Shown here one piece after another: positions 1,198 through 37,800 of a stretch of 40,744 bases of DNA. The notes beneath the pieces were generated by a model, which ran no database searches, was not told where the DNA came from, and saw only the letters and a list, made by a program, of their open reading frames with translations. Every line of letters starts with the position of its first letter. The stretch's first letter is position 1. The position numbers and the translations under genes are program-made. Where the stretch lies: assembly GCA_020859995.1 (NCBI GenBank), contig JAJBVE010000217.1, forward strand, positions 1 to 40,744, written 5' to 3'. The DNA is from Clostridiales bacterium. Lineage in GTDB: Bacteria; Bacillota; Clostridia; Lachnospirales; Lachnospiraceae.

Positions 1198-1722
1198 TCA
1201 TCTGAAAACAGCCCGGCATACGGCACAGCCCCCTGTGATACGCTCATGAAATGTCAGTTTGCCGCCCTGATAAATGCCCGCAAATATCCCCTGGTCAATG
1301 GCAGAAATGACAGAGCAGATTTCCGGTGTATAGAAGTCACTGAAATAGCATTTGCACACACAGAAAGCACCGGGCGTTTCTTCGTCTATCTGAATCCCGA
1401 TGTTGCGATAGAGCAATGCAATAACAGAAAAACAGTCCTTCTTGTCTTTCGGATTTAGCCATCGGCGAAGATGGCTCCCCAGAGTATAGGCCATTTGATA
1501 CAGCTTCTGATGCAGCGTTTCGAGATCATCCCCCTGTTGTGTGGCTCGCATGGCTTCTTTTGCTGTGAACTGTGCGTAGGCTTTCAACAGTTCCGGAGTG
1601 GAACGCCCGGTAGCCTTCGGCACATCCACGCCGAAGGCTTTCGCCGTTTGCCGCATGAGTATTCGTAATTCAAGATTTGCGCCGAACCTGCTGGACAGTG
1701 CGCTATAAATCAACCGGTTCAT
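1198..1722 (-). CDS. Small cysteine-containing protein, resembles ATC-hydrolase-like family
   Basis: 174 residues from the ATG at 1722. AGGAG lies about 7 bases upstream, and the ATG shares one base with the TGA of the gene before it (TGATG), so translation is probably coupled. The N-terminal half is helical. The C-terminal half has CVCKCYFSDFYTPEIC, then an aspartate-containing segment, then GGCAVCRAVF at the end. Spaced cysteines followed by G..C.F near the C-terminus recall the L-2-amino-thiazoline-4-carboxylate hydrolase/V4R-like fold, but the resemblance is only to the pattern and I cannot name a substrate. It is the last gene of the flavodoxin, pyruvyl-transferase-like, reductase-ligase operon, so a role in the same pathway is a reasonable inference. 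Confidence 0.6.
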   Translation of the reverse strand: MNRLIYSALSSRFGANLELRILMRQTAKAFGVDVPKATGRSTPELLKAYAQFTAKEAMRATQQGDDLETLHQKLYQMAYTLGSHLRRWLNPKDKKDCFSVIALLYRNIGIQIDEETPGAFCVCKCYFSDFYTPEICSVISAIDQGIFAGIYQGGKLTFHERITGGCAVCRAVFR

Positions 1723-4487: not shown

Positions 4488-4512
4488 CGGCAGTTCCTCC
4501 ATGTGTTCTGCA

Positions 4513-5868
4513 TCAGGTCGGGCTTTCATGAGAAAGCAGCCATGAAGTAAGAAAGTCTCCCATCTCATCCAGAGTGTGCTGATAGGAAACAAGCTGACGC
4601 CCGATTTTGTCTCTGATTTGTTCCTGATGAGACAGAGCATACTCCAGAGCGCCTGTAAGCTCCGAGGCCAGCTCCGTATCATCTGCGTGCAGAAGCTGGT
4701 ACTGGCTCAAATCCATCTCTTGCATGATGTTGTCCAGACGTTCGTCCATCGAGATCGCCACGCTGGGTACCCTTGCATCCATAGACAGCACCTGAGCGTG
4801 ATACCTCGAGGTGATCAGGAGCGACAACTGCCGCAAAATAGCTGCCATTTCATAGCCGTCATGGTCGGAGGACAAATAGACAGAAGCCGGTTTCGTGAGC
4901 CTGGCGTTCAGTTTATTACAGGCATCTGCGTCCAGACGCTCCATGCCCAGTATGACCACATGACAGGGATGCTTTGCCGCAAATTCATTCACCGAATGAG
5001 CGATGGCATCCAGATAATGCTCAAATTGCTGTTCTCGCTGCTTTGACCAGCTGAAAAAATACCACAGTTGAAATTGCAATGCATGATCGCCGACGAGCTT
5101 CGCCTTCATCCACTTTGCCAACGAGAGTCTGACCGGCCACCAAAAGGGATTGATGGGCGCAATGCCCACAATCGGCGCAGTGCCGTCCCAGCCAGATTGC
5201 CGTAGCTGTGTGACAGCCCATCCCGCACGAGAGGAACTGTCAAATTTCCATGCGGCATCCGTTCCCAAATGACCGTTCAGCCCCAACCGCTGGATTTCAT
5301 CTAAGGAGTTTTGGGTCCTGGCGATAAAATAGGTATCCGAACAGAGCCGCTTTACCGTGCGCTCCAGAAATGCGTCCATCTCACCAGCCTCAGAGCCATA
5401 GGCGATGCAAGGCTTGTGCTGGCTTTTCATAATGCCAGCCGCCTCACAGAAATACAGGGTAAGCGCATTGGCAAACTTGCTTTTCAGCGTGGAACCCTCG
5501 CACAGAATCACGGCATGATTGGCACAGCAGGCCCGAAAGACATCCGCAAAAAAGATGGAGCTGAACGGAACGAGCTTGACGTCGGAATCAAAATAGCAGC
5601 GGATGTTTTCTTCATCCAGCGTCATGACGGAAATCTGTGATTTCTCTTTGCCGAGGCGTTGCTGAAGCTGCTTCACAATTTCCGCTACCCGCACATCAGC
5701 GCCGGTATTTCTGGCTCCGTTGTAGCCCACCAACAGGATGTGCAGCTTTTGCCCCTTCTCCAAATCCCCAATGTCCCTATAGTCTACAAAACCAAGTTTC
5801 GAGAAAATTGGGGCAAAACGAGATAGGAAAACGAAAAACTTTACAAGAAGATTGATAAGACGATCCAT
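4513..5868 (-). CDS. Polysaccharide pyruvyl transferase family protein
   Basis: 451 residues. After a hydrophobic, basic N-terminal segment (residues about 1-30, possibly membrane-associated) comes HILLVGYNGARNTGADVRV (about 43-61), the signature start of the PS_pyruv_trans/CsaB family, whose members transfer pyruvate ketals from phosphoenolpyruvate to cell-wall sugars. Further matches are ILCEGSTLKSKFANAL, a YGSEAGEMD loop, ARTQNSLDEIQRLG, and a late ITSRYHAQVLSMDARVPSVA segment typical of the second nucleotide-fold half. The start has no strong ribosome site: 15 bases separate it from the flavodoxin stop, which suggests coupling. The stop lies 25 bases before the reductase-ligase start. The sugar acceptor is not known, and a role outside wall pyruvylation is possible given the neighbours. 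Confidence 0.8.
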   Translation of the reverse strand: MDRLINLLVKFFVFLSRFAPIFSKLGFVDYRDIGDLEKGQKLHILLVGYNGARNTGADVRVAEIVKQLQQRLGKEKSQISVMTLDEENIRCYFDSDVKLVPFSSIFFADVFRACCANHAVILCEGSTLKSKFANALTLYFCEAAGIMKSQHKPCIAYGSEAGEMDAFLERTVKRLCSDTYFIARTQNSLDEIQRLGLNGHLGTDAAWKFDSSSRAGWAVTQLRQSGWDGTAPIVGIAPINPFWWPVRLSLAKWMKAKLVGDHALQFQLWYFFSWSKQREQQFEHYLDAIAHSVNEFAAKHPCHVVILGMERLDADACNKLNARLTKPASVYLSSDHDGYEMAAILRQLSLLITSRYHAQVLSMDARVPSVAISMDERLDNIMQEMDLSQYQLLHADDTELASELTGALEYALSHQEQIRDKIGRQLVSYQHTLDEMGDFLTSWLLSHESPT

Positions 5869-10089: not shown

Positions 10090-10800
10090 CTATTCCTGGG
10101 GAAGTACATCTTGGATATAGGCTTTCACTGTGGAATAAACCGTTTCAAAGGGCGGTTTCTCTACATCACCGGTCAGCCGAAATTTCTCATAAGCGTGTCT
10201 CAGATCGTCCGGGCGGTTCAGAAAACCCGTGAAATTCTCCAACTTTCTTCCGCTGTTTTCCAGTGTCAGCATAATTTCAGCGCTGTCAAAGATGAATGCT
10301 TTAGAAAGATAGTACAAATCTACCACATCTTTAATCCTGCGAAAAACTCTGTCGGTAGAAATTGCGGAAACCTTATCCGCAAGCATTTGTGCCGGAGTAA
10401 CGCCGCGGAAGCAAAAGCCCTCAATTTCATATAGCTGTGTTGGAACAACAGGCCGGTTCACATCAATATCCATGGAGAACAAAATCTCGCCTGTGGAACG
10501 GTCCGCCAACTCAAAACCGGCAGAGCGCCCTTCTCCATACATACGGTAGAGGCTCACCTCCAGGTCAATGCCGTTATTCGTGAGCGCCTTCTGCAACGAA
10601 ACGATCATCTGCCCGGCAGTCGGTGCCGTTTCCGAATACCAGTTTGCGTCAATATCAACTGTATGTCTGATTTCCTCGACATATCCCGCTTCCAGCAGGC
10701 AGGCTTTCAGCACCATTGAACCCTTAAAATCAATGGGAATCCTGCTGTCATATATGGCTTTCATCACCTGATACATCAGTTTTTCTTCTGCTGTCATCAT
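10090..10800 (-). CDS. AbiEii/AbiGii-type nucleotidyltransferase toxin
   Basis: 236 residues from the ATG at 10800 (a second ATG follows at 10797), with GAGG about 10 bases upstream. The nucleotidyltransferase core has FKGSMVLKACLLEAG (25-39) with the GS motif, HTVDIDANW (46-54) with the paired aspartates, SMDIDVNRP, and ADKVSAISTDRVFRRIKDVVDLYYLS, the downstream lysine/aspartate helix typical of AbiEii and MenT toxins. Such toxins block translation, for some members by adding nucleotides to tRNA, and act in phage abortive infection or plasmid stabilisation. The gene follows the XRE gene by 12 bases in one operon. On an ICE it may serve both retention and defence. Confidence 0.85.
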   Translation of the reverse strand: MMTAEEKLMYQVMKAIYDSRIPIDFKGSMVLKACLLEAGYVEEIRHTVDIDANWYSETAPTAGQMIVSLQKALTNNGIDLEVSLYRMYGEGRSAGFELADRSTGEILFSMDIDVNRPVVPTQLYEIEGFCFRGVTPAQMLADKVSAISTDRVFRRIKDVVDLYYLSKAFIFDSAEIMLTLENSGRKLENFTGFLNRPDDLRHAYEKFRLTGDVEKPPFETVYSTVKAYIQDVLPQE

Positions 10801-12478: not shown

Positions 12479-12820
12479 TTATGAGAGAGAGGCAAGCACC
12501 CGCAGGGATTCCTTTTGGGTCGCCCAAATCTCATCCAGCCGTTCCTGCAAGTCCTGAATGTCAGCGGCATAAATGCTGCCGGTGGCATTGGCCTTTTTCG
12601 AGTACTGATTGAGGTTATTCGAGCATTTGCGGAGAAGGACGCTGATTTGCCGGGGATAGTCATAATTCATGTTGAGACAATACCCATTCAGCGCCATCTT
12701 GCGGAGATAGGCGCTCATACTGCGAACACCTCCGTCCTCCATCTTTTTACGGATGATCTCCAACTCGGACTGGCTGACCCGAAAGTGCAGCATCACGTCC
12801 CGGTTTTCGATTTCTGACAT
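12479..12820 (-). CDS. mobC: Relaxosome accessory protein, MobC family
   Basis: 113 residues from the ATG at 12820, which overlaps the TGA of the giant upstream gene (TGATG) and has GAGGAGG 6 bases upstream. The N-terminal part (RDVMLHFRVSQSELEIIRKK, then GGVRSMSAYLRKMALNG) is a ribbon-helix-helix DNA-binding fold. It is followed by the MobC hallmark LLRKCSNNLNQYSKKANATG and a C-terminal helix. MobC proteins bind near oriT, help melt it and assist the relaxase. The partner relaxase lies 2.5 kb downstream, at 8534-9988, in the same orientation. Confidence 0.85.
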   Translation of the reverse strand: MSEIENRDVMLHFRVSQSELEIIRKKMEDGGVRSMSAYLRKMALNGYCLNMNYDYPRQISVLLRKCSNNLNQYSKKANATGSIYAADIQDLQERLDEIWATQKESLRVLASLS

Positions 12821-15800
12821 CACAGCACCTCCTCGGTGCGCTGGGTGGTATCCCGGCGGGGCGGCGGCACCTGACTGGATTTTTGCTTCAGGTCAGCCAG
12901 CACGGAGGGGCGTCCCTCAGAAAGTTCATCAGCCTCCCGTTCGGCAGCGCTGCCACCCTCCATGTTGAGGGCAGCATCCAGCTCGGCCAGCCGTGCGGAT
13001 TTCTCCGCCAGCTCTGCCTCCTGGGGGAAGGGCTTGCCCACCTCGGCCTGCGTCGCCTCCCGCTGCTGTTCCAGCGTTTCCAGCCGGGTCTGCGCCTGCT
13101 CCAGCCTTGCGGGGATGTTGTTCAGCGCATTGTCCAGCCGGATCAGGTTGCCTCTGGCATCGGAGCCGATGGCTACCCGGTGGGTCATACTGCCTTTCAG
13201 AGAAATCACGAATTCTTTGTTGAAGCTGTCAAAGGACAGCTCCATCTGGAACCCACGATAACTGCCCAGAGGATAGCCCTCCACGGCATTGGCGGTCTTG
13301 CAGACGGCGAGGATGGCCTCGCCAGCATCCGCCTTTTCCGTGTAGGTTCTCCCGGCAACAGTCATACCGGCGAAGCCGTCTTTGGGGTGCGGGTGTGCCG
13401 CAACCGTAGCGATGTCCTGCCGGAAGCCCTCGATATTGCTGTGCTGCTGTTCGATCTCCCTGGGGAAGTATTTCAGGAGCTGGTCTTCCAGCCGGTACTG
13501 CTTACTGCGGAAGTCCGCTTTCAGCACTTTCAGTCTGGCCACGTCGATGTCCAAGTCCATCTTTTCCTTGATGAGCGGCGACCCTGCGCACAGCGCCTTG
13601 ATCTCCGCATAGGAGAGAGCCTGCTCGTCCACGTCGTCGCAGGAGCGAACCGGCGACTTGCTGGTCATAATCTGTGAAATAAACTTCTGCTTGTTCTCAA
13701 GGGTCTGGTAGAGGTAGGCGTCGAACGTCCCCTCGGTAACATAGCTGTATACATGAACGTCCTTATTTTTATTGCCCTGACGGATGATACGCCCGTTGCG
13801 CTGGGTCATGTCCGCAGGCCGCCAGCCCACATCCAGGTGATGAACGGCCACCAGCCTGTCTTGGACGTTGGTGCCTGCGCCCATCTTTTGGGTAGAGCCG
13901 AGTAACACCCGCACCTGGCCGGAGCGCACCTTTGCAAACAACTCCTTCTTTTTGGCCTCTGTGTCGGCGTCGTGGATAAAGGCGATCTCCTCATGGGGGA
14001 CGCCCATCGCCTCCAGCTTAGAGCGAATATCATCATAGACATTGAAGGTGCCGTCATTTTTTGGGGTAGACATATCACAGAACAGGAGCTGTGTCAGTCG
14101 CCCCGGCGTTCCTTCCTGCCAGATGCGGAACACATTGTTCACACAGGCGTTCAGCTTACTGTTGGGGTCATCAGGTAGCAACGGGTTCATGAGCCGCTGG
14201 TCGAGACCGATTTTCCTGCCGTCCGACGTGATGCAAAGCATATTATCCTCTGAGGCATCTACAGCCCCAGCATGGACTTTCGATGCCCGTTCCGACAACG
14301 CTGCTACCATCTCTTTCTGAATCTCCGAGGGCTGTACCACCACGGTCTCAAAGTGAGCCTCCGGCACCGGCAAATCGAGCTGGTCGCTGGTCTTAATGTC
14401 CGCAACCTCTTTGAACATAGCCATCAATTCTGGCAAATTGAAGAAGCGGGCGAACCGGGTTCGCGCTCTATATCCTGTGCCTTCTGGCGCAAGCTCTATG
14501 GCCGTCTGTGTTTCACCAAAGGTTGACGCCCAGGCGTCGAAGTGGGTCAAGCCCTTCTGCTGGAGGGTGCTGTACTGGAGGTAACGCATAACGGTGTACA
14601 ACTCGGTCATGCTGTTGCTGACTGGGGTGCCGGTGGCAAACACCACGCCCCGCCCGCCGGTGATCTCGTCCATATAGCGGCATTTCATATACATATCCGA
14701 GGACTTTTGCGCCTCAGAAGTAGACAATCCCGCCACATTTCTCATTTTGGTGTACAGGAACAAGTTCTTAAAGGCGTGCGATTCGTCCACAAAGAGCCTG
14801 TCCACGCCCAACTGTTCAAACGTGACCACATCGTCCTTCCGTTCTGTGCTGGTCAACTTGTCCAGTCTGGCCTGGAGGGAACGTCGGGTCTTTTCCATCT
14901 GCTTGATGGTAAAGTTCTCGCCACGCTGGTACTTTGCAATGGCGATGGCCTGCTCAATGTCATCGATCTGCTCCTGCAACAGGCGCTCCTGTCGCTCTGC
15001 GGAGACCGGGATTTTTTCAAACTGGCTGTGGCCAATGATAACGGCGTCATAGTCGCCGGTGGCAATCCTGGCGCAGAACTTCTTTCGCCGTGCGGTCTCG
15101 AAGTCCTTCCGGGTTGCCACCAGAATTTTTGCGCTGGGATAGAGCCGCAGGAACTCATTGGCCCACTGGGTGGTCAGGTGGTTGGGAACCACAAAGAGGG
15201 ACTTCTGACATAGCCCCAGCCGTTTCGATTCCATCGCCGCCGCAGCCATCTCGAACGTCTTGCCTGCCCCCACTTCGTGCGCCAACAGGGTGTTGCCGCC
15301 GTAGAGGACGTGTGCAATGGCATTTCTCTGGTGTTCCCGTAACATAATCTCAGGGTTCATCCCCACGAAATGAATGTGGGAGCCGTCGAACTCACGGGGA
15401 CGGGTGCTGTTAAACAATTCGTTGTACTTCTGGCAGAGCGCCTCCCGGCGCTTCGGGTCTTTCCAAACCCAATCCTGAAAAGCGTCCTTGATGGCCTGCT
15501 GTTTCTGCTGGGCCAGGGTGGTCTCCTTCTTGTTCAGGACACGCTTCTGCTTGCCGTCAGCATCCTCCACCGTGTCATAGATACGGACGTCCTTCAGGTT
15601 CAGCGTCTCCTCTAGGATACGATAGGCATTTGCCCGGTCTGTACCGTAGGTCACATAGGCCGCTACATCGTGGCGGTTGGGGACGGTTTTGCCCGTGATC
15701 TGCCATTCTGCCGTCATGGGCGAAAACTTCACCTCAATACTGCGGCGCATATAAAAGGGCGTCTCAAAGGTCTCCTGCATGAACTGCTGGATATACTCCC

Positions 15801-18800
15801 TGTCCACCCAGGTGGCACCCAGGCGAACGTCGATTTCCGAGGCGTCCAAATCCTTGGGCTGTGCTTTTTCCAGCGCAGTCACATTGACTTGATAGCTGGG
15901 GTCAGACTTTGCAGCCAGCCGTGCCGCCTGGAGCTTTGCCCGGACGTTGCCGGACAGATAATCGTCAGCGGTGTGCCACCCCTTCGTTCTATCTTCTGCA
16001 TTTGCCTCTAATGGGTCAAGGAAGATAACACCGGACAGCTCCTCGATGATACGGTCAAACTCACCCGGTGTTCCCAGCAGTTCAGACATGAAGGGCAGGT
16101 CAACATCGCCATGCTCCCCAATGGAAACGGCCAGCGCTTCCACCGGCGTGTCCACGCTGGTCACGCTCCGGTCAGGCCGGATGGTGCGTTTCGTGAACAT
16201 ATCCGCCTTGCCGATGAGCTTGCCGTCCTCGTCCACGTTCTCCAGAGAGCAGAGCAGATAATAGGAGGAATCATCCCCGAACACCCTCGCATTGGGGCGG
16301 GAGTTCAGCAGGCCATACTTTGCTGTAAAGGCATCGTAGGCCAGCTCCAGCTCATGCTGTTTTGCCTGAATCACCTCGTCCGGGTAGTCCTCCAACTGAT
16401 ACTCGATCAGCTCGTTCACCGTCTGGCGCAGGGAGATCATACCCAGCGCCCGCTGTCTGGCCGTGTCACTGAGCGCCACATGGCGCATGATGGAATCCTC
16501 CCGGAAATACACCTCACCATTCACCGCCGCATAGGAGAAGTTCTTCACGTTGGGGTCTGCGGGGATGGTATCGGTGCTAGGCGTCAGGCTGTCCTCCGGG
16601 GAAAGCTCCACAGCCTGATAGCTGCCCTGAATATGGGAAACAGCCTCGTGGAGCTGCTCCGCCAGGTCAGCGCCAGGGATGGGTGCAACGGTACATTCCT
16701 CCCGTCCATATTGGGTGCTTTGAGAGGTCAGCTCACCCAGCACCATTTCCAGGTGGTCAACGAAATAGCTGTTGATGGCAAATCCATCCGGGGTCTGGCC
16801 CAAGTGTACCCAATCAGGCTCGTCGTCGTCGCGGACTCCATATCCTTCGCTTCCGGGCAAGCCTGAAAGCTCACTCATTTCGTCGCTCCTCCTCTTCCCA
16901 TCGAATCTGCGATTCGATGGGAGCCCTGATATGGGGGTCTCCCGTTTTTGCAGGAAGATGATGTCCGACACTACATCCGTTCCGGCATTGGCACGGAACG
17001 CATTATTGGGCAGCCGGATGGCTCCCAGCAGCTCCGCCCGCTGTGCCAGATACTTGCGTACCTCCGGGGACTTGGCGTCCATCGTGTACCGGCTGGTGAC
17101 AAAAGCCACCACGCCGCCAGGCCGCACTTGGTCTAAGGCTTTCGCAAAGAAATAGTTGTGGATACTAAATCCCAGCTTGTTGTAGGGCCTGTCGTTGACC
17201 TTGTAATCGCCAAACGGCACGTTGCCCACCGCCAAGTCGTAGAAATCCCGCCGGTCAGTGGTCTCAAATCCGGCCACCTTGATGTCCGCATGGGGGTAGA
17301 GCTGCTGAGCGATACGCCCGGTGAGGGAGTCCAACTCCACACCGTAGAGCTTACTGCCTGCCATGCTGTCAGGGAGCAACCCGAAAAAGTTACCGACACC
17401 CATTGACGGCTCCAGGATATTGCCGGTCTGAAAGCCCATGTTGCCGACGGCCTCATAGATGGCCTTAATGACGGTAGGGCTTGTATAGTGTGCATTCAGG
17501 GTAGAAGCACGGGCGGCGGCGTATTCGTCCTCCGAAAGCAGGCTTTTCAGCTCCTGATATTCCTGCGCCCAGGCGGGCTTGTTGGGGTCAAAAGCATCTG
17601 CCAGACTGCCCCAGCCCACATAGTGGGATAACACTTCCTGCTGTTCCGGGCTGGCCTGCAAACCCTCTGCCTCCAGGTGGTGCAACAGCCGAATGGCTGC
17701 TACGTTGGCCTGATACTTGGCCTTGGGGCCGCCCTCACCCAGCGCATCGTCCGTGATGTGGAAGTTCTGGGCATTCCGGTGGGTCTGCTCCTTATAATCT
17801 TCATAGAGCGCTTCCTCGGCAGCTTCCCGGCTGGGGAAAGTGTGCCATTCGCCGCCGATCTGGACGGAGATGGGGTTTCTGTCTATGACCTCCTCCGGGG
17901 TTAGCTCCGGTTCGACCACAGGTTCAGCTACCGTTTCCTGCGCCGGGGTATGCTTCTGAGCAGGCTCAGCCTGTTCAGGTTCGCCAAAGTGGAGCGTCCT
18001 AATCTCCACATCGAAGGGCAGGCCGTTCTGTTCGCCGGGGTAAAATGCCACCGGCTCCTCGGTCACTGTGGGTTGCTGGGGCGACTGTTCCGCCTGTTGC
18101 TCCTGGGGATAGCGCTCCATGAGCCGCAGGAAGTTCTCACGGCTCTCTGCCCGGAGGACGGGGAACCGAAGCGATGGGTCGAGCAGATGAACATCCGATG
18201 TTCCGATGCTGTCGATGACAAAGGGCTTGCCATCCTCCAGATAGACGGTGTCGCCTACGTTGTAGGGAAACGCAGTTTCCGGGTGCAGCACCGCCTGCAC
18301 CTGTTCCCGCAAGCCGGGGGTGTCTTTCAGTTCGGCACTGTCGATGAACTCATATGCGGCATCCCAACCGTCAAAGGTGATGGGGTAATCATCCAAATCC
18401 CCAAAATAAATCGGGTTGGTCTCCGTGGGACGGAACAAATAACCGGCAGTCTCCATCGCCGCCACAATGCGCTGCTGGTCTGGGGTCAGGTCAGACAACA
18501 CCTGATTCCGATAATCCTGCTGCTCCGTTTCAAACTGGTCAGCCTGCTCTGCAAGGGGAACGTCAGCCTGTTCCGCTTCCTGCGCCAGCACAGCGGCGAT
18601 TTGCTCATCCGAGGCGTAGGTCAGGTCATCAAAGCTCAGTTCTTCCAACTCTTCGGCAATCAGTGCCTCCAGCGAATCATACTGCCGGACATCGATCAGG
18701 GTTTCACCCAGGTAACGCTCCAGTTTGAAACCAACCAGGTCAACAGTCGCCTGAATTGGGATCTCATCATCCGTGATGGTAGTGAAAGCAAGGCCGATAT

Positions 18801-21603
18801 TGGTCAGGTCGTCGAAATCGGCACCCTCCGAAAATTCCTCCAGACAATACTCGTCAATCAGCTCCTTGGCTCTGTCCAGGGGAGAAAGCGCTGTCTCCCT
18901 CTGTGTCGCTTCTACCAACTCATTCCGGTATTCCTCGGCCTGCCACCGGCTGACGAAATCGACGGTGAGACCGTCCTTGTCCACATAGTAGCTGTCTGTC
19001 TGGTCATCCCAGATAGAGTACGCCACACGGCCCGGATACCAGTCCACTTCAATCACATGAAAACGGTCTTCGGAGGTATCTTCGGGCGTAACGGGTGCTT
19101 CTTCCTCTGCCGCCTCCTCCGCAGCGATACGCTCCACATCGGCCTCCACCTGCTGAATAAAGGGACTTTGCGCCAGCTTGTCCGGGTCAACCACTTCGCC
19201 ATTGACAATGCCGTGTTCCGCCAACTGCCGCCGGACTGCTTCCGGGTCAATATCGGAGAAATCATCCTCCTCCGGCTCAGGTTCTGCCGCAGGCGGCACA
19301 TCGCCCGCAATCGGAGGTTCTGCCACAGGCATCTCCGGCACTGGCTCGACAGGCTCCTTTTCCTGCTGAAGCTGTGCCTTTTCCTCCTCTGTCAGATAGC
19401 GGTCAGCCTTTATCAGCGCAGCGACCCGCTTGGCAACGGCATTCCAGGTCAGCGTGACCGTTGCACAGCAGTCCTTTTCCAGCTTGATCCCCTTGCTGTC
19501 ATGACCTTCAGAGCTGTGGCGCTTATTGGAGAATGCCCCGCTGTGGCCTCCGATGCCGTACTCCTCCCGGAGAAAAGCAGCCTGTTCTCTTGTGGTATGC
19601 GGCTCGGAGAAGAAAGCGTAAATCCGGCCCTTGCCGCCAGCCATCAAGCTGCCATAGGAAATGGCTTCGTCCAGCTCATCTTCCGTGATGAACTGTCCGG
19701 CCCCCGGCACCGCAGCCATGTCCGAAGTGTATTCCTTCCAGGGCGCAGTCAGGTCATGCAGACCGTTTACCATTGCCGGGATATTGAGATGATGAAAGCG
19801 GAGAACACCACGTTCCTGCTCGTAGATCTGTGCAAATGCCTCCATGTCCTGAGTGATAGCTGCGAGGGTCTCCGGGTCAGCCAGCGCATTTGCCAGCCGT
19901 GCCGTATCCTGCGGAAAGCCGCCGCCACGGTAGCTGTCCAGTGAGGACATCAGCGACTTATCTTTGGCCAGTTCCGAGAAATCTTGCCGCAGATACCACA
20001 GGGACTGCGCCAGTTGGGTGCGGTAATAGCCCTGACTCTCGGCCAGCTCCACGTTGGTGGCAAACTGACCGGCATCCATCAGCTCCCCGATACGCTCTGC
20101 GGCGTTCAGCCAGGGAATATACATTCCCGGTGCCGCATTCCGTGCATGGTCGCCGTTGGCCAGCCAAATGCCCAGCTCCCCGAACCAGGCGGACATCCTG
20201 CCGTTGTCGGTGAGCAACCCCAGACCGCCACGGTATTCCCGGCTCAGGAAGTTTGCAATCTCTATGGGAGACTTGCCGGTCATAAACAGCGCCGCCACTT
20301 CCATCCGGGTCTGTTCCGTCCTGCCGCCCAGCCGAAGCACATGGTCAATGTCCTCCTGAGGCAAAGAGAAAGCGGAGGGCGTTTCGCTCTCCGCTTCGTG
20401 GTCTATGGCTTCAATCTGTTCTGTTTCTGAGGGGAACAGCAGGGTCATCTGCTCATATTGAACTGGTTCCGTCTCAAAGTGGTTTAGCTGTACACCAGCT
20501 CCGTCAGCACGATCTCCTCTGCCTGGGTCTTCAAGCTGTTCATGTGCTGCACCCAGGCCATCTGCTGCGTCCGCTTGTCCGGTGCGGGGTTCTTCTCCAG
20601 CAGCTCCTGCATCAACTGCTCCATCCGGTTGTGTGCCGTCTCGTCGATCTCCCGGAGATGCGGGAACAACTGCTCCGTCAAGGACAGGTCGTTGTACAGG
20701 ATCGGGCGATGTTCCTGCAAGAACGTCCGGCGCATCCGTCCGTACTTGCCCAGGGGTGCCTTGCTGGTCTCCTTGAGGGTGAGGTTGGGAATCAGGTAAT
20801 CCCCGTTTTGCGTGTAGGTCAGTTCCATTTTCGTGGCTCCTTTCCATGCGCTTGCTGCGCTCATAGTTGCGGATGGTGACTTCAATTTCCCGGAACACTT
20901 GGCCGGAAATTTCACTGACCGCCGTTCCCAGGGCATTGGTGGCCTTGCGGGTGTTGTAGTCAAAGATGGGGGTAAATTCATCCGGTTCAAAGTAGTCGTC
21001 GGGGTTCTCCACGCACCGGCTCAGAATCTCGTACTTGATGCTGACCGTTGCGGCGTTCAGGAAGGACATCCTTCTGCTGTCCTCATCATACCCCTCCAGA
21101 AAGCTGTCCGCAACGATGTCGGCCAGCTCATATTCATGCTCCATCCAGTAGTCGATAGCCAGCCAGTTTGCGATATTCTCCACCTGCACATCTAACGGGT
21201 CACGGGCGGAGACCTCAAACACCGCCGCCAGCGCCTCCTGCACCGGGCGCTCATATTCCTCCCGCATCTGCCACAAATTTACCGGGCGGGAGTTCCGACG
21301 TGCGCCGGTGTCGGCCACGTCAAAGACGTAACGTAGGCGGGGATAATCGCCGCTGTTGTCGATGAGGGCGATGCCCTTGGAGCCTCGCTTCACATACCGC
21401 CGCATGGTGTTGTTCCATAAGTCATACTCGGCGCAGGCGGTAGCTTCCGGGCGCTGGGCAAAAATCATAAGCTGGTCGCCATAGGCGTACTTGCTCACCC
21501 GGCCAGCCGTCCGCAGGAACGCCGTCCACTGTTCCCGGCTTTGGGTCAAGCCGTCAGAGGTATCCTCCGCCATGCGGCTGTAATATTCCAGTTTCGATGC
21601 CAT
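12820..21603 (-). CDS. Giant ICE protein: ArdC/LtrC-like N-terminus, N6-adenine-methylase-like domain, SNF2-type helicase
   Basis: 2,927 residues from the ATG at 21603, where GGGAGG stands 5 bases upstream (MASKLEYYSRMAEDTSDGL). Residues 1-250 resemble the ArdC/LtrC-type N-terminus. Residues about 259-373 are a Pro/Gly/Asp/Ala-rich linker overprinted by tnpV in another frame. The middle is acidic and repeat-poor. A methylase-like core near 1400-1500 has LEPSMGVGNFFG (motif I) and GNVPFGDYK (motif IV, NVPF instead of NPPY/F). The helicase occupies about 2090-2650: HEVGAGKTFEM (Walker A), FVDESHAF (DExH), FATGTPVSNS (motif III) and QRNGRIIRQG (motif VI). A coiled-coil tail ends the protein. Giant proteins of this kind are a hallmark of this ICE group and are thought to act on incoming or replicating element DNA. 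The biochemical activity is not established. Confidence 0.85.
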   Translation of the reverse strand: MASKLEYYSRMAEDTSDGLTQSREQWTAFLRTAGRVSKYAYGDQLMIFAQRPEATACAEYDLWNNTMRRYVKRGSKGIALIDNSGDYPRLRYVFDVADTGARRNSRPVNLWQMREEYERPVQEALAAVFEVSARDPLDVQVENIANWLAIDYWMEHEYELADIVADSFLEGYDEDSRRMSFLNAATVSIKYEILSRCVENPDDYFEPDEFTPIFDYNTRKATNALGTAVSEISGQVFREIEVTIRNYERSKRMERSHENGTDLHAKRGLPDSQPHPQGDQQGTPGQVRTDAPDVLAGTSPDPVQRPVLDGAVVPASPGDRRDGTQPDGAVDAGAAGEEPRTGQADAADGLGAAHEQLEDPGRGDRADGAGVQLNHFETEPVQYEQMTLLFPSETEQIEAIDHEAESETPSAFSLPQEDIDHVLRLGGRTEQTRMEVAALFMTGKSPIEIANFLSREYRGGLGLLTDNGRMSAWFGELGIWLANGDHARNAAPGMYIPWLNAAERIGELMDAGQFATNVELAESQGYYRTQLAQSLWYLRQDFSELAKDKSLMSSLDSYRGGGFPQDTARLANALADPETLAAITQDMEAFAQIYEQERGVLRFHHLNIPAMVNGLHDLTAPWKEYTSDMAAVPGAGQFITEDELDEAISYGSLMAGGKGRIYAFFSEPHTTREQAAFLREEYGIGGHSGAFSNKRHSSEGHDSKGIKLEKDCCATVTLTWNAVAKRVAALIKADRYLTEEEKAQLQQEKEPVEPVPEMPVAEPPIAGDVPPAAEPEPEEDDFSDIDPEAVRRQLAEHGIVNGEVVDPDKLAQSPFIQQVEADVERIAAEEAAEEEAPVTPEDTSEDRFHVIEVDWYPGRVAYSIWDDQTDSYYVDKDGLTVDFVSRWQAEEYRNELVEATQRETALSPLDRAKELIDEYCLEEFSEGADFDDLTNIGLAFTTITDDEIPIQATVDLVGFKLERYLGETLIDVRQYDSLEALIAEELEELSFDDLTYASDEQIAAVLAQEAEQADVPLAEQADQFETEQQDYRNQVLSDLTPDQQRIVAAMETAGYLFRPTETNPIYFGDLDDYPITFDGWDAAYEFIDSAELKDTPGLREQVQAVLHPETAFPYNVGDTVYLEDGKPFVIDSIGTSDVHLLDPSLRFPVLRAESRENFLRLMERYPQEQQAEQSPQQPTVTEEPVAFYPGEQNGLPFDVEIRTLHFGEPEQAEPAQKHTPAQETVAEPVVEPELTPEEVIDRNPISVQIGGEWHTFPSREAAEEALYEDYKEQTHRNAQNFHITDDALGEGGPKAKYQANVAAIRLLHHLEAEGLQASPEQQEVLSHYVGWGSLADAFDPNKPAWAQEYQELKSLLSEDEYAAARASTLNAHYTSPTVIKAIYEAVGNMGFQTGNILEPSMGVGNFFGLLPDSMAGSKLYGVELDSLTGRIAQQLYPHADIKVAGFETTDRRDFYDLAVGNVPFGDYKVNDRPYNKLGFSIHNYFFAKALDQVRPGGVVAFVTSRYTMDAKSPEVRKYLAQRAELLGAIRLPNNAFRANAGTDVVSDIIFLQKRETPISGLPSNRRFDGKRRSDEMSELSGLPGSEGYGVRDDDEPDWVHLGQTPDGFAINSYFVDHLEMVLGELTSQSTQYGREECTVAPIPGADLAEQLHEAVSHIQGSYQAVELSPEDSLTPSTDTIPADPNVKNFSYAAVNGEVYFREDSIMRHVALSDTARQRALGMISLRQTVNELIEYQLEDYPDEVIQAKQHELELAYDAFTAKYGLLNSRPNARVFGDDSSYYLLCSLENVDEDGKLIGKADMFTKRTIRPDRSVTSVDTPVEALAVSIGEHGDVDLPFMSELLGTPGEFDRIIEELSGVIFLDPLEANAEDRTKGWHTADDYLSGNVRAKLQAARLAAKSDPSYQVNVTALEKAQPKDLDASEIDVRLGATWVDREYIQQFMQETFETPFYMRRSIEVKFSPMTAEWQITGKTVPNRHDVAAYVTYGTDRANAYRILEETLNLKDVRIYDTVEDADGKQKRVLNKKETTLAQQKQQAIKDAFQDWVWKDPKRREALCQKYNELFNSTRPREFDGSHIHFVGMNPEIMLREHQRNAIAHVLYGGNTLLAHEVGAGKTFEMAAAAMESKRLGLCQKSLFVVPNHLTTQWANEFLRLYPSAKILVATRKDFETARRKKFCARIATGDYDAVIIGHSQFEKIPVSAERQERLLQEQIDDIEQAIAIAKYQRGENFTIKQMEKTRRSLQARLDKLTSTERKDDVVTFEQLGVDRLFVDESHAFKNLFLYTKMRNVAGLSTSEAQKSSDMYMKCRYMDEITGGRGVVFATGTPVSNSMTELYTVMRYLQYSTLQQKGLTHFDAWASTFGETQTAIELAPEGTGYRARTRFARFFNLPELMAMFKEVADIKTSDQLDLPVPEAHFETVVVQPSEIQKEMVAALSERASKVHAGAVDASEDNMLCITSDGRKIGLDQRLMNPLLPDDPNSKLNACVNNVFRIWQEGTPGRLTQLLFCDMSTPKNDGTFNVYDDIRSKLEAMGVPHEEIAFIHDADTEAKKKELFAKVRSGQVRVLLGSTQKMGAGTNVQDRLVAVHHLDVGWRPADMTQRNGRIIRQGNKNKDVHVYSYVTEGTFDAYLYQTLENKQKFISQIMTSKSPVRSCDDVDEQALSYAEIKALCAGSPLIKEKMDLDIDVARLKVLKADFRSKQYRLEDQLLKYFPREIEQQHSNIEGFRQDIATVAAHPHPKDGFAGMTVAGRTYTEKADAGEAILAVCKTANAVEGYPLGSYRGFQMELSFDSFNKEFVISLKGSMTHRVAIGSDARGNLIRLDNALNNIPARLEQAQTRLETLEQQREATQAEVGKPFPQEAELAEKSARLAELDAALNMEGGSAAEREADELSEGRPSVLADLKQKSSQVPPPRRDTTQRTEEVL
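16896..16922. repeat. 27-bp near-perfect palindrome inside the giant gene
   Basis: Twelve-base arms (TCCCATCGAATC and its complement) flank the centre TGC. The palindrome encodes part of GLPSNRRFDGKRRSDEMSEL, a basic insert between the methylase-like domain (ending DIIFLQKRETPI) and EPDWVHLGQ. It keeps the frame open. Such a palindrome would form a strong hairpin in the mRNA. Confidence 0.7.
20484..20828 (-). CDS. tnpV: TnpV-like protein, overlapping the giant gene in another frame
   Basis: 114 residues, starting MELTYTQNGDYLIPNLTL at an ATG 9 bases after GGAG. It continues PLGKYGRMRRTFLQEHRPIL, LSLTEQLFPHLREIDETAHN and ends KTQAEEIVLTELVYS. This is the full recognisable TnpV family (transposon-encoded protein of clostridial elements), with start, stop and length as expected. 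It lies wholly within the giant gene, shifted by one base, and corresponds exactly to that protein's low-complexity linker (about residues 259-373). Both frames are open, so both products may be made. The function of TnpV is not known to me beyond its association with mobile elements. Confidence 0.7.
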   Translation of the reverse strand: MELTYTQNGDYLIPNLTLKETSKAPLGKYGRMRRTFLQEHRPILYNDLSLTEQLFPHLREIDETAHNRMEQLMQELLEKNPAPDKRTQQMAWVQHMNSLKTQAEEIVLTELVYS

Positions 21604-21619
21604 GTTTTCCTCCCTTCTC

Positions 21620-21832
21620 TCATGGGTCAAGGTCAGGATAGAGGGGGAGCCGGTCAAATTCTTCATCTGTCATCTGTGCCAATTTATCCAGCACAGAATC
21701 CGTGAGAGAGCGGAGCCTGCGCTCCGGTCTTGTCAGCTCCTGCCGCATTCCTTCCAGTGTGGTGATGAGGCCCCGGCGGGTGCCGGGGCTGTAAAGCATC
21801 ATCAGGGTCAGTTCTTCTCTGGTGAAATTCAT
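21620..21832 (-). CDS. Transposon-transfer assisting protein (TTRAP)-like
   Basis: 70 residues, MNFTREELTLMMLYSPGTRR, ending in an acidic, proline-containing tail (DEEFDRLPLYPDLDP). Size, opening and genomic position fit the TTRAP family found just upstream of the giant helicase gene in clostridial ICEs. The start overlaps the stop of the YodL gene (ATGA), so translation is coupled, and the stop lies 16 bases before the giant gene's start. The role in transfer is known only by association. Confidence 0.75.
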   Translation of the reverse strand: MNFTREELTLMMLYSPGTRRGLITTLEGMRQELTRPERRLRSLTDSVLDKLAQMTDEEFDRLPLYPDLDP

Positions 21833-22407
21833 TCAAGACCTCTTTCCTCCCGGTGTTTCGTCTGCTTCGGCGGCCATTCCGGTTCCGGGGCATTTTTCAG
21901 CTTCTCCAACACGGAGGGACGTTCGTCCCGGACGGGTTCCTTGGGGCCGTTGTTCAGTACGCCGTCGATCATGCCGTAATCGTCCTCCATCGCCATCTCC
22001 GCATTCCGCAGATAGTTCTCCGGGTGAAAATCAGGGAGCTGGCGGAACCCAATGCTGTCCACATAGTAACAGGTTACAACACCGGCCTGCTTTATCGCCA
22101 GGATGTCACTGACAGAGAGGGAATGGCCGGTGAAATCTGCCGGGTGGTCGATGTTGAACTTCACATAGAGGTCTTCCAGGGCGGTGCCGGAAGGCAGGCC
22201 CCCCGTGTAGACCACATCGTAGTGATCCACCTCTGGTTCTCTGCCGTGGCTCTCCAGCCAGCTGTAGTTCATGAAGCGATCTTGGGCGGTCTCGTCCGTC
22301 CGCTTCAACTGCAAAATGGCGTAGCTGTCCGTCCGGCTGCCCAGAAATGCCTGCAAGGTTTCCTGACTTTTCGCCCCGTGAACGTCATCCCATGCCTGAA
22401 TATCCAT
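21829..22407 (-). CDS. YodL-domain ICE protein
   Basis: 192 residues. The N-terminal domain contains YAILQLKRTDETAQDRFMNY, a YDVVYTGGLP segment, LEDLYVKFNIDHPADFTGHS and LSVSDILAIKQAGVVTCYYV, which is the YodL family pattern. LPDFHPENYLRNAEMAMEDD and a polar tail with RPSVLEKLKNAP follow. This RPSVLEKLK-type tail recurs in the next protein (RPSALEQLKAG) and in the giant protein (RPSVLADLKQK), hinting at a shared short motif among these ICE proteins. The start shares one base with the TAA of the preceding gene (TAATG) and GGAGG is 7 bases upstream. Molecular function is unknown. Confidence 0.8.
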   Translation of the reverse strand: MDIQAWDDVHGAKSQETLQAFLGSRTDSYAILQLKRTDETAQDRFMNYSWLESHGREPEVDHYDVVYTGGLPSGTALEDLYVKFNIDHPADFTGHSLSVSDILAIKQAGVVTCYYVDSIGFRQLPDFHPENYLRNAEMAMEDDYGMIDGVLNNGPKEPVRDERPSVLEKLKNAPEPEWPPKQTKHREERGLE

Positions 22408-34784: not shown

Positions 34785-34824
34785 GAACAAGCGCTGTGCC
34801 TTTTTACAGACACAGCGCTCGTTC
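34785..34824 (-). terminator. Stem-loop after the adhesin gene
   Basis: Fourteen-base arms (34785-34798 with 34811-34824, one mismatch) and a twelve-base loop, 20 bases beyond the adhesin stop. Leftward the tail is TGTTAGG, not a clear U-tract, so it may allow partial read-through into the maff2 leader. Confidence 0.55.
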
Positions 34825-34843
34825 AGTGGGTGTTATTCTTTTG

Positions 34844-37800
34844 TCAGTCCTGGTTCTTTTTCCTGCGATGGACAGCCAGAACAGCCCAGCAGCCCATACC
34901 GGCGAGAGAGGCCAGAAGCAAGCTCAGCCAGAGTGCCACGTTACTGTTATCGCCCGTCTTGGGGACAGAGGGGGTGGATACCGTCGAATCGGTTTCATCC
35001 ACCATTGTCACACACTGCACCTTGCCGGTATCCAGAACCTCAAATGTCACATCTTCCGCAACAAGGTATCCGTCCGGCGCAGTTTCCTCCCGCAGCGTGT
35101 AGGTGCCGATGGGGAGCATCTCGATATAATGAGGCTTATTTGTGGATGTCCAGCTTTCCACCACATTGCCGTCGGCATCGTAAATGGTCAGCTTTGCCCC
35201 AGGCAGCTCATTCCCGGCAATATCCTGTTTCGAGATTTTCACCTTTGTCACATCGTCCTCCATCACAACGTGCTGAATCTCAGCCGTGTCCTCAATGGTG
35301 AACTGGATGCTCTCTGCGGTGGCGTACCCGTCTGCGGGCTTGGTTTCGATCAGCGTGTAGGTCTTGCCAACCACCAGGTTCTGAATGGTGTGCGCCTTAG
35401 TTGTGGAAACCCACTCATCGACAACAGCTCCGGTTTCATCCACCACTCTCAGATGCGCTCCGGGCAGTTCCTCGCCGGTGGTCAAATCGGTCTTGGTGAT
35501 CTCCACAGTCGTCACATCGTCCTCCATGACAACGTGCTGAACCTCAGCCGTATTCTCAATGGTGAAGTCAATGCTCTCTGCGGTGGCGTACCCGTCTGCG
35601 GGCTTGGTTTCGATCAGCGTGTAGGTCTTGCCAACCACCAGCTCCTTGATGATATGCGCCTCAGTTGTGGAGACCCATTCATCGACAACGGCTCCGGTCT
35701 CATCCACCACTTTCAGATGCGCCCCAGGCAGTTCCTCGCCAGTGGTCAGGTCGGTCTTGGTGATTTCAACAGTCGTCGGCTCGTTCTCAAAGGCCAGCTC
35801 AACGGTCTGCTCGGCCACGTCCTCGCCCTGCCAGGTGACGGTGAAGGACTGGCTTTCGTCAGTGGTGACAAATCCGTCCGGCGCATACAACTCCTTCACA
35901 TAGTAGGCCCCGTCCAGAGGCAGGTCTGCCGTGAAGTCAATAGCTCCGTTCTCGTCAGTCACTCTCAGTTCAATGATTTCGTCCGCCTCGATCAAGACGG
36001 TGCCGGACGCAGACACAATATCCTCCGCAGCATACAGCCCGAAAATCGCGCCTTGCAGCGTTCTCCCAGTGTCCTTTTCGGTCTTTACCACATGGACAGA
36101 GGCCTTCTGCCGGTCATTCTGCCAGGCTTCGTCATAGACCACGACAGCCATATCCTGATCCTGATAGCGCAGATCCACATAGCGAATCTCATCGTCCAGA
36201 ACATAGCCGTTTACTGTGCTGATTTCCTTCACATAGTACTGACCGAGGGGAAGCCCTTCCAGCTTGGCGATGCCGTACTCATTCGTGGTGATGGTTGCCA
36301 CCAGCTCATCGGCCTTGTAGTAATCCTCACTGACGCCGTCCGCCGCCTTGATGTCCTCAGCAGCGTAGACCTCGAAGGTCACATCCGTCAGGTTGCCGGT
36401 GACATAGTTGAAAATATGCTCCACAATGCCTTTCACCACATTGACCAGGGTCACACTGTCCAGGAACTCCCCCTTCTTGTTGATAATCAGCGAAGCAGTC
36501 GGCACGTCGTCCTGCATCTCCACCGGCTGAACCTCAGCGGTATCCTCTACGGTGAAGGTGATTTCCGTCGCTTTCAAATACCCATAGGGTGCGATCTCCT
36601 CGTGGAGCGTGTAAGTCTCGCCCACCACAAGGTACTGGATCACATGGGCTTCGCCCGCCACGGACACCCAACTGTCCACCACAGTGCCGTTGCTGTCCGT
36701 CACATAGAGAGAAGCGCCAGACAGCTCCACGCCGGTGATCAGGTCGGACTTGGTGATTTCAACAGTCGTCGGCTCGTTCTTCTTCACAGCGGTCAGCTTG
36801 ACTACTTCCACGTCCTGCCCCCGATAAGAGGCGTCAAAGGTCAGCACTTCATCCGAGGAGACAAAACCGGCAGGAGCCGAAATCTCTTTCACATAATACT
36901 GACCCAGCGGCAGGTCGAGGGTGCAAACCGCAAGGCCGTCCTCGCTGCTGGTCATCTCCTGGAGCAGCGTGTCCGCAGGGACGATGACTTCGCCGTTCGC
37001 GGTAATATTTTCAGCACTGTAAATGCCAAATACCGCACCAGAAACAACAGCTCCCGTCTGTGCGTCCTGCTTCTCTACCGCAAGGGAGACCTTCTGCCGT
37101 TCGTTGGAGAAGGTCAGCGTCTCAGCTACCACCGCCGTATCCTGTCCGGCATAGGTGAACTCCACTTCCTGAGAAACGGAGTTCAGCGTGTAGCCATAGG
37201 GTGCGGTCACTTCCTGCACCTCATAGGTGCCCAGGGGAAGGTCAGACGCAACGGCCTTGCCGTCCGCGTCGGTTGTCACCGTCGCCACCAGTGCGCCTTT
37301 GGCGTACACTAGGTTTCGGTTGCCGTTGGCGTCCGTCTGGAAGTCGGAAGTGTAAATGTCCTCTGCCGCATACACTTCAAAGGTCGCGCCCTCCAGGGTG
37401 GTCTCCTCATAGAGAAAGTCCCCATTGTAGTCCACCAGCGTTTCGCCGCTCTTAACGATGGTCAGCTCACCCTTTACCGGGTGATTCTCGCACACTACCT
37501 CGATAATCACGTCCCCGCTGACGGAATCCGTGAGATAGGCCGTGTTGGTGTCAACGCAGACCTCCACATAGCCGGTGTTACGGGTGTAGCCGTAGGGCGC
37601 AGTCACTTCCTCAATGCGGTAGGTGCCTGGCGTGAGTGCGTTAGGCAGGATGAGATAGCCCTGCTCATCGGTAAAGTAGGAGGTGTGGACGGTGGTGGTC
37701 GGGTAAGTCGTCACCTGTTCCACATAGCAATTATTCTCCAGGTCATACACCTTGAACTCGGTGTTGGCCTGCAAAACGGCCTGCTTCGTCTCATCGTCCT

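Follow-up and report, generated by a model that had tools for sequence, protein, structure and literature searches.

A tnpV gene nested within the linker of a giant gene from a Clostridiales bacterium

Can the same segment of DNA encode both the linker of a giant protein and a complete small protein? This question is raised by a stretch of 40,744 nucleotides (nt) from a Clostridiales bacterium of the family Lachnospiraceae (contig JAJBVE010000217.1 of GenBank assembly GCA_020859995.1), which we will call the window. Its minus strand carries a giant open reading frame (ORF) of 2948 amino acids (12820..21666; the likely start is the ATG at 21603, after GGGAGG, which gives 2927 amino acids). Nested in this gene, in another frame of the same strand, is a putative gene of the TnpV family, tnpV (20484..20828). 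We consider it highly probable, from comparisons of related sequences, that the tnpV segment encodes two proteins, within a best explanation in which the overlap is old and TnpV has sometimes left it.

The nested frame in the window

tnpV has 114 codons, from an ATG at 20828 to a TAA that ends at 20484, and begins at position 2 of a giant codon, i.e., it is in the +1 frame of the giant gene. A Shine-Dalgarno-like AAGGAG lies within the giant coding sequence, 8 nt before this ATG (20837..20842, minus strand). The small ORF matches PF14198 (TnpV) over its full length (E = 1.4e-39, 135 bits versus a cut-off of 27, positions 1–111 of the 111 in the profile). A preliminary description of the sequence had reported a complete TnpV-like ORF with a start, a ribosome site, and a stop in the +1 frame, and its coordinates, strand, and family are all confirmed. 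That description had also placed tnpV over residues 259–373 or so of the giant protein, which agrees well with the overlap that we find (residues 259–374 if the giant protein starts at the ATG at 21603, or 280–395 of the longest ORF). At this place the giant protein has a low-complexity linker (20484..20828, minus strand; its DNA is that of tnpV) which is predicted to be disordered: in the structural model, almost all of residues 272–384 have a predicted local distance difference test (pLDDT) score under 50. TnpV itself is modeled with a pLDDT of 92.5, with two strands and four helices.

The third frame across the tnpV segment has 7 stop codons. For the window alone, the lack of stops in the giant frame is not significant, as 20% of its own synonymous codon shuffles are stop-free. 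The openness of the giant frame is significant because of the sequences of its relatives. We rejected a chance ORF given the match to PF14198 and the openness that is kept in those relatives. Nor is the TnpV of the window a free-standing transposon gene, as it sits within the giant gene. The genome that contains the window has four TnpV: the window's copy, two others that are also nested (L002 and L003), and a free one (L004).

Both frames in related loci

A first survey with tblastn, using TnpV as the query against 115 sequences, gave 118 hits, and 82 of these lie within a giant-type frame that runs open for 300 codons or more and is stop-free across the match. Free copies of tnpV have several giant-frame stops across the match. 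A profile survey gave 231 hits, corresponding to 182 unique sequences. With 17 partial, weak, or broken ones set aside, 165 full-length and intact sequences remain, of which 129 are nested and 36 are free. In the profile survey, nested copies were defined as having zero giant-frame stops, so the result of 0 stops, versus 302.7 after shuffling, is set by the definition. A retest that uses only the giant N-terminus replaces this result and avoids the circularity. When we searched for the N-terminus alone in 391 genomes of the class, 96 matched. We took 80 places (all of the 79 best matches except for the window itself and G395:C74, along with 3 weaker matches), which carry 78 different N-terminus sequences.

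At 61 of the 80 places, TnpV is intact and both frames are open across the overlap. Another 13 have a weak, divergent TnpV-like ORF, again with both frames open. tnpV is in one common frame at all 78 of the N-terminus-selected places with any TnpV signal (78/78). Among 63 unique N-terminus-retrieved sequences, there is 1 giant-frame stop, versus 161.2 ± 9.0 expected from 2000 synonymous shuffles (the lowest shuffle had 132). Similarly, the 13 weak loci have 0 giant-frame stops versus 27.7 ± 3.8 expected from such shuffles. The 36 free copies have 196 giant-frame stops versus 235.3 expected; this count is slightly low, as expected if some of them escaped lately. The preliminary description had raised dual coding as one reading of the overlap, and this reading withstood the checks that the description had named for refuting it. 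We looked for homologs with stops throughout the tnpV frame, and found this frame broken by a stop at only 1 of the 80 places (L172).

The arrangement extends beyond the class. In a phylum-wide search with the giant N-terminus (the phylum is Bacillota, judging from the relatives with names), 31 of 398 genomes matched, and we fetched 20 further loci (the 18 new ones of the 25 full-domain matches listed, with G881:C40 left out, plus 2 weaker matches with long open frames). The 18 full-domain loci all hold a nested tnpV; as for the other two, L266 carries a divergent ORF in that same frame, and L265 has no TnpV match. We also noticed two public plasmid records (L237, 4001–4342, and L238, 4001–4333) with TnpV, and no giant, among the features listed. 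In both records a giant-type frame runs for more than 1600 codons without a stop, and annotation seems to pick one frame.

Silent sites are slowed just where the frames overlap. In a scan of synonymous divergence along 40 full-length giants (20 independent pairs, 52 scan windows), the two 57-codon scan windows inside tnpV had values of 0.05 and 0.03, while the other 50 ranged from 0.35 to 0.59; tnpV is the sole drop along the whole giant gene. As 39 of these 40 giants came from the TnpV search, which may be biased towards conserved tnpV, the 58 N-terminus-retrieved nested loci below provide a check. At four-fold degenerate sites, for 16 independent pairs with 75–90% identity in the N-terminus, divergence was 0.44 in the flank, 0.31 in the tnpV frame, and 0.04 in the overlapping part of the giant frame (relative to the flank, the 95% ranges are 0.56–0.86 for the tnpV frame and 0.06–0.11 for the giant frame). 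In 58 N-terminus-retrieved nested loci, the values for the giant frame were 0.04, 0.12, and 0.19, versus 0.33, 0.66, and 0.69 in the flank, and those for the tnpV frame were 0.29, 0.53, and 0.56 (the first is not significant). The giant-frame values (0.04–0.19 in the overlap versus 0.33–0.69 in the flank) support purifying selection in the tnpV frame. The silent sites of tnpV are only modestly slowed, to 0.7–0.9 of the flank, and 1 of 6 comparisons was not significant.

Could just one of the frames be real? TnpV might be a dead relic, or the giant frame might be open by chance, with its N-terminal and helicase parts being separate genes. Annotations may list either frame alone: a Virgibacillus plasmid (NZ_CP033047.1), which is a nested example from outside Clostridia, is annotated with the SNF2-related protein only and no TnpV, while NZ_OY725736.1 and NZ_CP051681.1 have TnpV and no giant among the features listed, though the giant frame is open. 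However, both halves of this explanation are contradicted by the deficit of giant-frame stops (1 versus 161 expected) and by a divergence at the giant's synonymous sites that falls several-fold to ten-fold. We therefore rejected it, and consider it extremely unlikely.

Several observations weigh against dual coding. tnpV is dispensable to some giants, since it is missing from L210 and L215 (2 of the 80 places); a third giant without it is L265. In L172 the nested tnpV has one stop and the giant is truncated as well, and in L184 there is a giant-frame stop over tnpV. tnpV is shortened at 2 of the 80 places: L205 runs off its contig, and in L196 some 45 residues of TnpV are followed by disruption of both frames. 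A few loci have a giant frame that closes downstream of tnpV, in some of them soon (for example, 125 nt beyond it in L175, but 965 nt in L161). The residues of the linker change fast: between the window and L036 there are 12 changes in the linker and 1 in TnpV. Comparisons of TnpV to the PDB and to viral models with Foldseek, and to PHROGs, gave no functional hint. Finally, in the closest bin (14 N-terminus-retrieved pairs) the slowdown in the tnpV frame is not significant (confidence interval of the ratio 0.70–1.07), so constraint on the linker beyond its openness is modest. Judging from the sequences, both frames are under constraint, tnpV far more so, and what is kept of the linker is mainly its openness.

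The giants without tnpV differ from one another: L210 has a short linker that joins the flanking domains, L215 has an acidic linker, and L265 has no TnpV match. These could be losses of tnpV or an older state. As a separate observation, L172 (G368:C216) has a second, intact, free-standing tnpV about 160 nt after the broken nested one.

How would TnpV be translated? A GAAAGGAG-type Shine-Dalgarno sequence is found in 93 of the 129 nested loci, while the other parts of the giants have 0.011 per 52 nt. Its phase is common to 91 of the 93, so it cannot serve as evidence that is independent of the giant peptide. With the best start chosen, 127 of the 129 nested loci start with ATG. Programmed frameshifting out of the giant frame, which would give an ArdC-TnpV fusion instead of free TnpV, seems very unlikely. 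In the window, the tnpV frame does extend open for 192 nt upstream of its ATG, but in L066, L060, L102, L103, and L108 that frame is closed 21–33 nt upstream of the match, and a Shine-Dalgarno sequence with an ATG is common in nested loci.

We also considered that the nucleotide constraint might be due to an RNA or DNA element (a structure or a transfer origin) rather than to a second protein. We give this almost no credence. Differences between nested loci follow the codon periodicity of tnpV (0.14, 0.11, and 0.28 at positions 1, 2, and 3, in the 75–90% bin), and the ORF keeps its length, ATG, Shine-Dalgarno sequence, and Pfam domain. Rfam gave nothing over its cut-off for positions 20300–21000 of the window; one match reached 18.2 of the 123 bits, on the other strand.

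Instead, we propose that ribosomes which begin at the giant start codon would read the segment as a disordered linker, from the ArdC-like domain to the methylase/SNF2 part, as the kept openness suggests. Other ribosomes would begin at the internal Shine-Dalgarno sequence and ATG of the same mRNA and make TnpV, with 114 amino acids. TnpV would be under the stronger constraint, and the linker would be selected mainly for openness.

The divergent nested ORFs are probably homologous to TnpV, going by their sequences. The 13 sequences (group A4) matched the TnpV profile with 84% probability (E = 7.7e-6). At E up to 1, 12 of the 13 match TnpV in Pfam (the best at 1e-6; L217 is missed). Because an unrelated family also came up in that scan (6 members, reaching 5.4e-4), an isolated hit of such a size carries little weight. 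Homology gains weight because these ORFs are at the same place and in the same frame. In those that we looked at, there is an ATG after a Shine-Dalgarno-like sequence.

Origin of the overlap and free copies of tnpV

The overlap appears to be old, in that the deepest of the giant lineages sampled already have it, and it would have been inherited together with the giant's N-terminus. Distances between TnpV sequences correlate with those between N-termini (Mantel r = 0.89; 0 of 500 permutations were as high). A quick tree of the N-terminus, with ArdC-like proteins as the outgroup, has the nested arrangement in its deepest lineages; the three giants without tnpV fall inside, on long branches (fork support 83). 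The TnpV tree (83 nested and 27 free copies, 115 columns, midpoint root) has many open forks. In this tree, free copies are interspersed with nested ones, with 8 changes between the nested and free labels. At least 5 of these changes are forced by starred branches; they may go in either direction, and not all are escapes.

tnpV seems to have left its nest several times, and free copies occur without the giant gene. The free copies L039, L045, L048, L061, and L071 keep the linker translation with 4, 6, 3, 0, and 2 stops; in contrast, L059 and L094 have 11 and 7 stops in this translation. In L045, tnpV is intact and the giant is decayed, with broken pieces of the N-terminal domain just upstream. 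Because several free copies retain remnants of the linker, they look like escapes, whether the giant decayed around them or they were transferred.

Which frame came first? Given about an even chance, in our view, is the origin by fusion or insertion: an older, free tnpV would have come to lie between ArdC-like and methylase-helicase genes, or would have inserted in the giant, with the linker being the younger frame. Adaptedness of the codons to the flanks is 0.102 for the tnpV frame, near the 0.124 of the flanks themselves, versus -0.095 for the giant frame in the overlap and -0.088 for the third frame. On average, this favors tnpV as the older or dominant frame. The fold and the disorder that are predicted for TnpV and the linker, respectively, fit this origin, as does L210, where a short linker joins both flanking domains without tnpV. 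However, just 87 of 123 loci have tnpV as the better adapted of the two frames, and a difference of this sign would also be expected if tnpV is simply under stronger selection at present. Also, no sampled lineage is clearly from before an insertion: the three tnpV-less giants are inside the tree, though on long branches. The preliminary description had suggested that the giant protein arose by insertion of tnpV. This idea fits the codon adaptation and the predicted fold, but the arrangement is already in the deepest lineages, with no clear state that precedes it.

Alternatively, tnpV might have been born in place, over the linker of an existing giant, with all free TnpV being escapees. When the TnpV tree is rooted at its midpoint, nested copies take the deepest branches, with the free copies interspersed; the nested copies that we examined are at one place and in one frame; and some free copies carry linker remnants. 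However, codon adaptation and the fold point the opposite way, and the root of TnpV is uncertain (115 columns and long branches). We consider birth in place unlikely.

More tentatively, and with somewhat less than even confidence, we suggest that the home of the TnpV family is the giant conjugation gene. TnpV would have been nested since before the sampled giants diverged, and would have escaped several times to become the "transposon-encoded" TnpV of mobilizable elements, which would use it to take advantage of the parent elements' machinery for conjugation or establishment. TnpV would have become nearly unrecognizable to Pfam in L217–L224 (not L220), L226–L231, and L266, while its frame and place were kept.

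Element context and the role of TnpV

The N-terminal domain of the giant (20824..21603, minus strand) is identified as ArdC-like by its predicted fold. AlphaFold2 is confident over residues 1–260 or so of the model, and its best Foldseek matches in the PDB are the ArdC structures 6i89 and 6sna (for 6i89, probability 1.00, E = 0.011, and a template modeling score of 0.46 by target length). By sequence, no Pfam match to ArdC was found in the window's giant or in any of 28 relatives. Further along the protein are a weak match to an Eco57I-type methylase (residues 1471–1548; 17023..17256, minus strand; PF07669 at 16.6 bits, below the Pfam cut-off of 25.3), an SNF2-related ATPase domain (PF00176, residues 2124–2301; 14764..15297, minus strand), and a Helicase_C domain (PF00271, residues 2558–2631; 13774..13995, minus strand), with the last two over the Pfam cut-off. 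By Pfam, a YodL-DUF4316 gene lies upstream (21829..22407, minus strand) and a NikA/MobC-like mobilization gene lies downstream (12479..12823, minus strand). The giant's neighbors include YodL-DUF4316, topoisomerase, TraG-type ATPase, NlpC/P60, and relaxase genes. Given these neighbors and the domains of the giant, the window seems to hold a conjugative element whose giant gene encodes a polyvalent protein, as Iyer et al. (PMC5512222) use the term.

Elsewhere in the window, an AbiEii-like nucleotidyltransferase (of a type IV toxin-antitoxin family; 10090–10800, minus strand) lies between the relaxase and the giant gene. AMP-binding/reductase and polysaccharide pyruvyl transferase genes (1722–5868, minus strand) lie beyond the relaxase and are perhaps cargo, or on the host side of the edge of the element. 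A frame of 664 amino acids that is antisense to the giant (17950–19944, plus strand) shows no clear drop in synonymous divergence and is therefore unlikely to be coding. There is also a protein of 1888 amino acids with SpaA repeats and a thioester domain (34844–40510, minus strand), and the frame of 838 amino acids that is antisense to it (34796–37312, plus strand) is probably a by-product of the repeats and codon bias.

Transposons and mobilizable elements are the reported carriers of TnpV (PMC3158075 and PMC9815147); here, it is nested in another gene. The TnpV of Tn4451 and of related mobilizable elements belongs to the same Pfam family, PF14198. On the grounds of homology to lambda Xis-type excision factors, TnpV has been postulated to act in excision (PMC3158075). 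However, the model of TnpV had no convincing match in the PDB with Foldseek (best E = 2.3), and no Xis-like fold appeared there, although such an absence weighs little. By the title of a 2004 paper that PMC5704250 cites, Tn4451 reportedly needs TnpX as its only transposon protein for transposition. It is unlikely that TnpV is needed for excision of the element. Among viral models, Foldseek gave three weak leads for TnpV, including Q8W6J4, which may be from Sinorhizobium phage PBC5. We rejected orf33 of phage PBC5 (L282, 26155–32712, minus strand), as its match to the TnpV profile near the C-terminus, of about 8 bits in a two-protein search, is probably at the level of noise.

In streptococci, the snf2 gene of a larger element is where elements with tnpV insert (PMC9815147). 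The window has only inexact matches to the 11-bp repeat of these insertions (21 with at most 2 mismatches, versus 12.6 expected). The co-inheritance of TnpV with the ArdC/SNF2 protein suggests a role in the entry or establishment of DNA. In the role that we favor, TnpV would be a small partner of the giant protein when transferred DNA enters the cell, and the overlap would tie the production of TnpV to that of the giant.

How does this locus compare to known systems? Like the polyvalent proteins (Iyer et al. 2017, PMC5512222), the giant has an ArdC-like N-terminus (by fold), a weak methylase match, an SNF2 ATPase, and a conjugative context. Unlike in those proteins, YodL is a separate gene in the window. 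The words "TnpV," "overlap," and "linker" do not occur in the text of PMC5512222, and our search of the open-access literature found no prior description of nested tnpV. In nog1/citC of Escherichia coli, too, a protein frame is wholly embedded in another gene, but nog1 is in the -2 frame, recent, and weakly expressed (PMC4683798), while tnpV is on the same strand as its host gene, belongs to a Pfam family, and is nested in distant relatives.

Few long overlapping genes of prokaryotes are reported to be fully established (PMC9927249). The nested tnpV corresponds to a Pfam domain, and its fold is predicted with confidence. Distant relatives from the phylum-wide search carry it as well, and it occurs three times in the genome of the window. 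A nested pair of this kind may be missed by annotation, as in NZ_CP033047.1. These loci are a deep natural data set on two proteins that would share DNA, and those where just one of the frames has decayed serve as natural controls. For the TnpV family, the overlap links a transposon gene to a giant conjugation protein.

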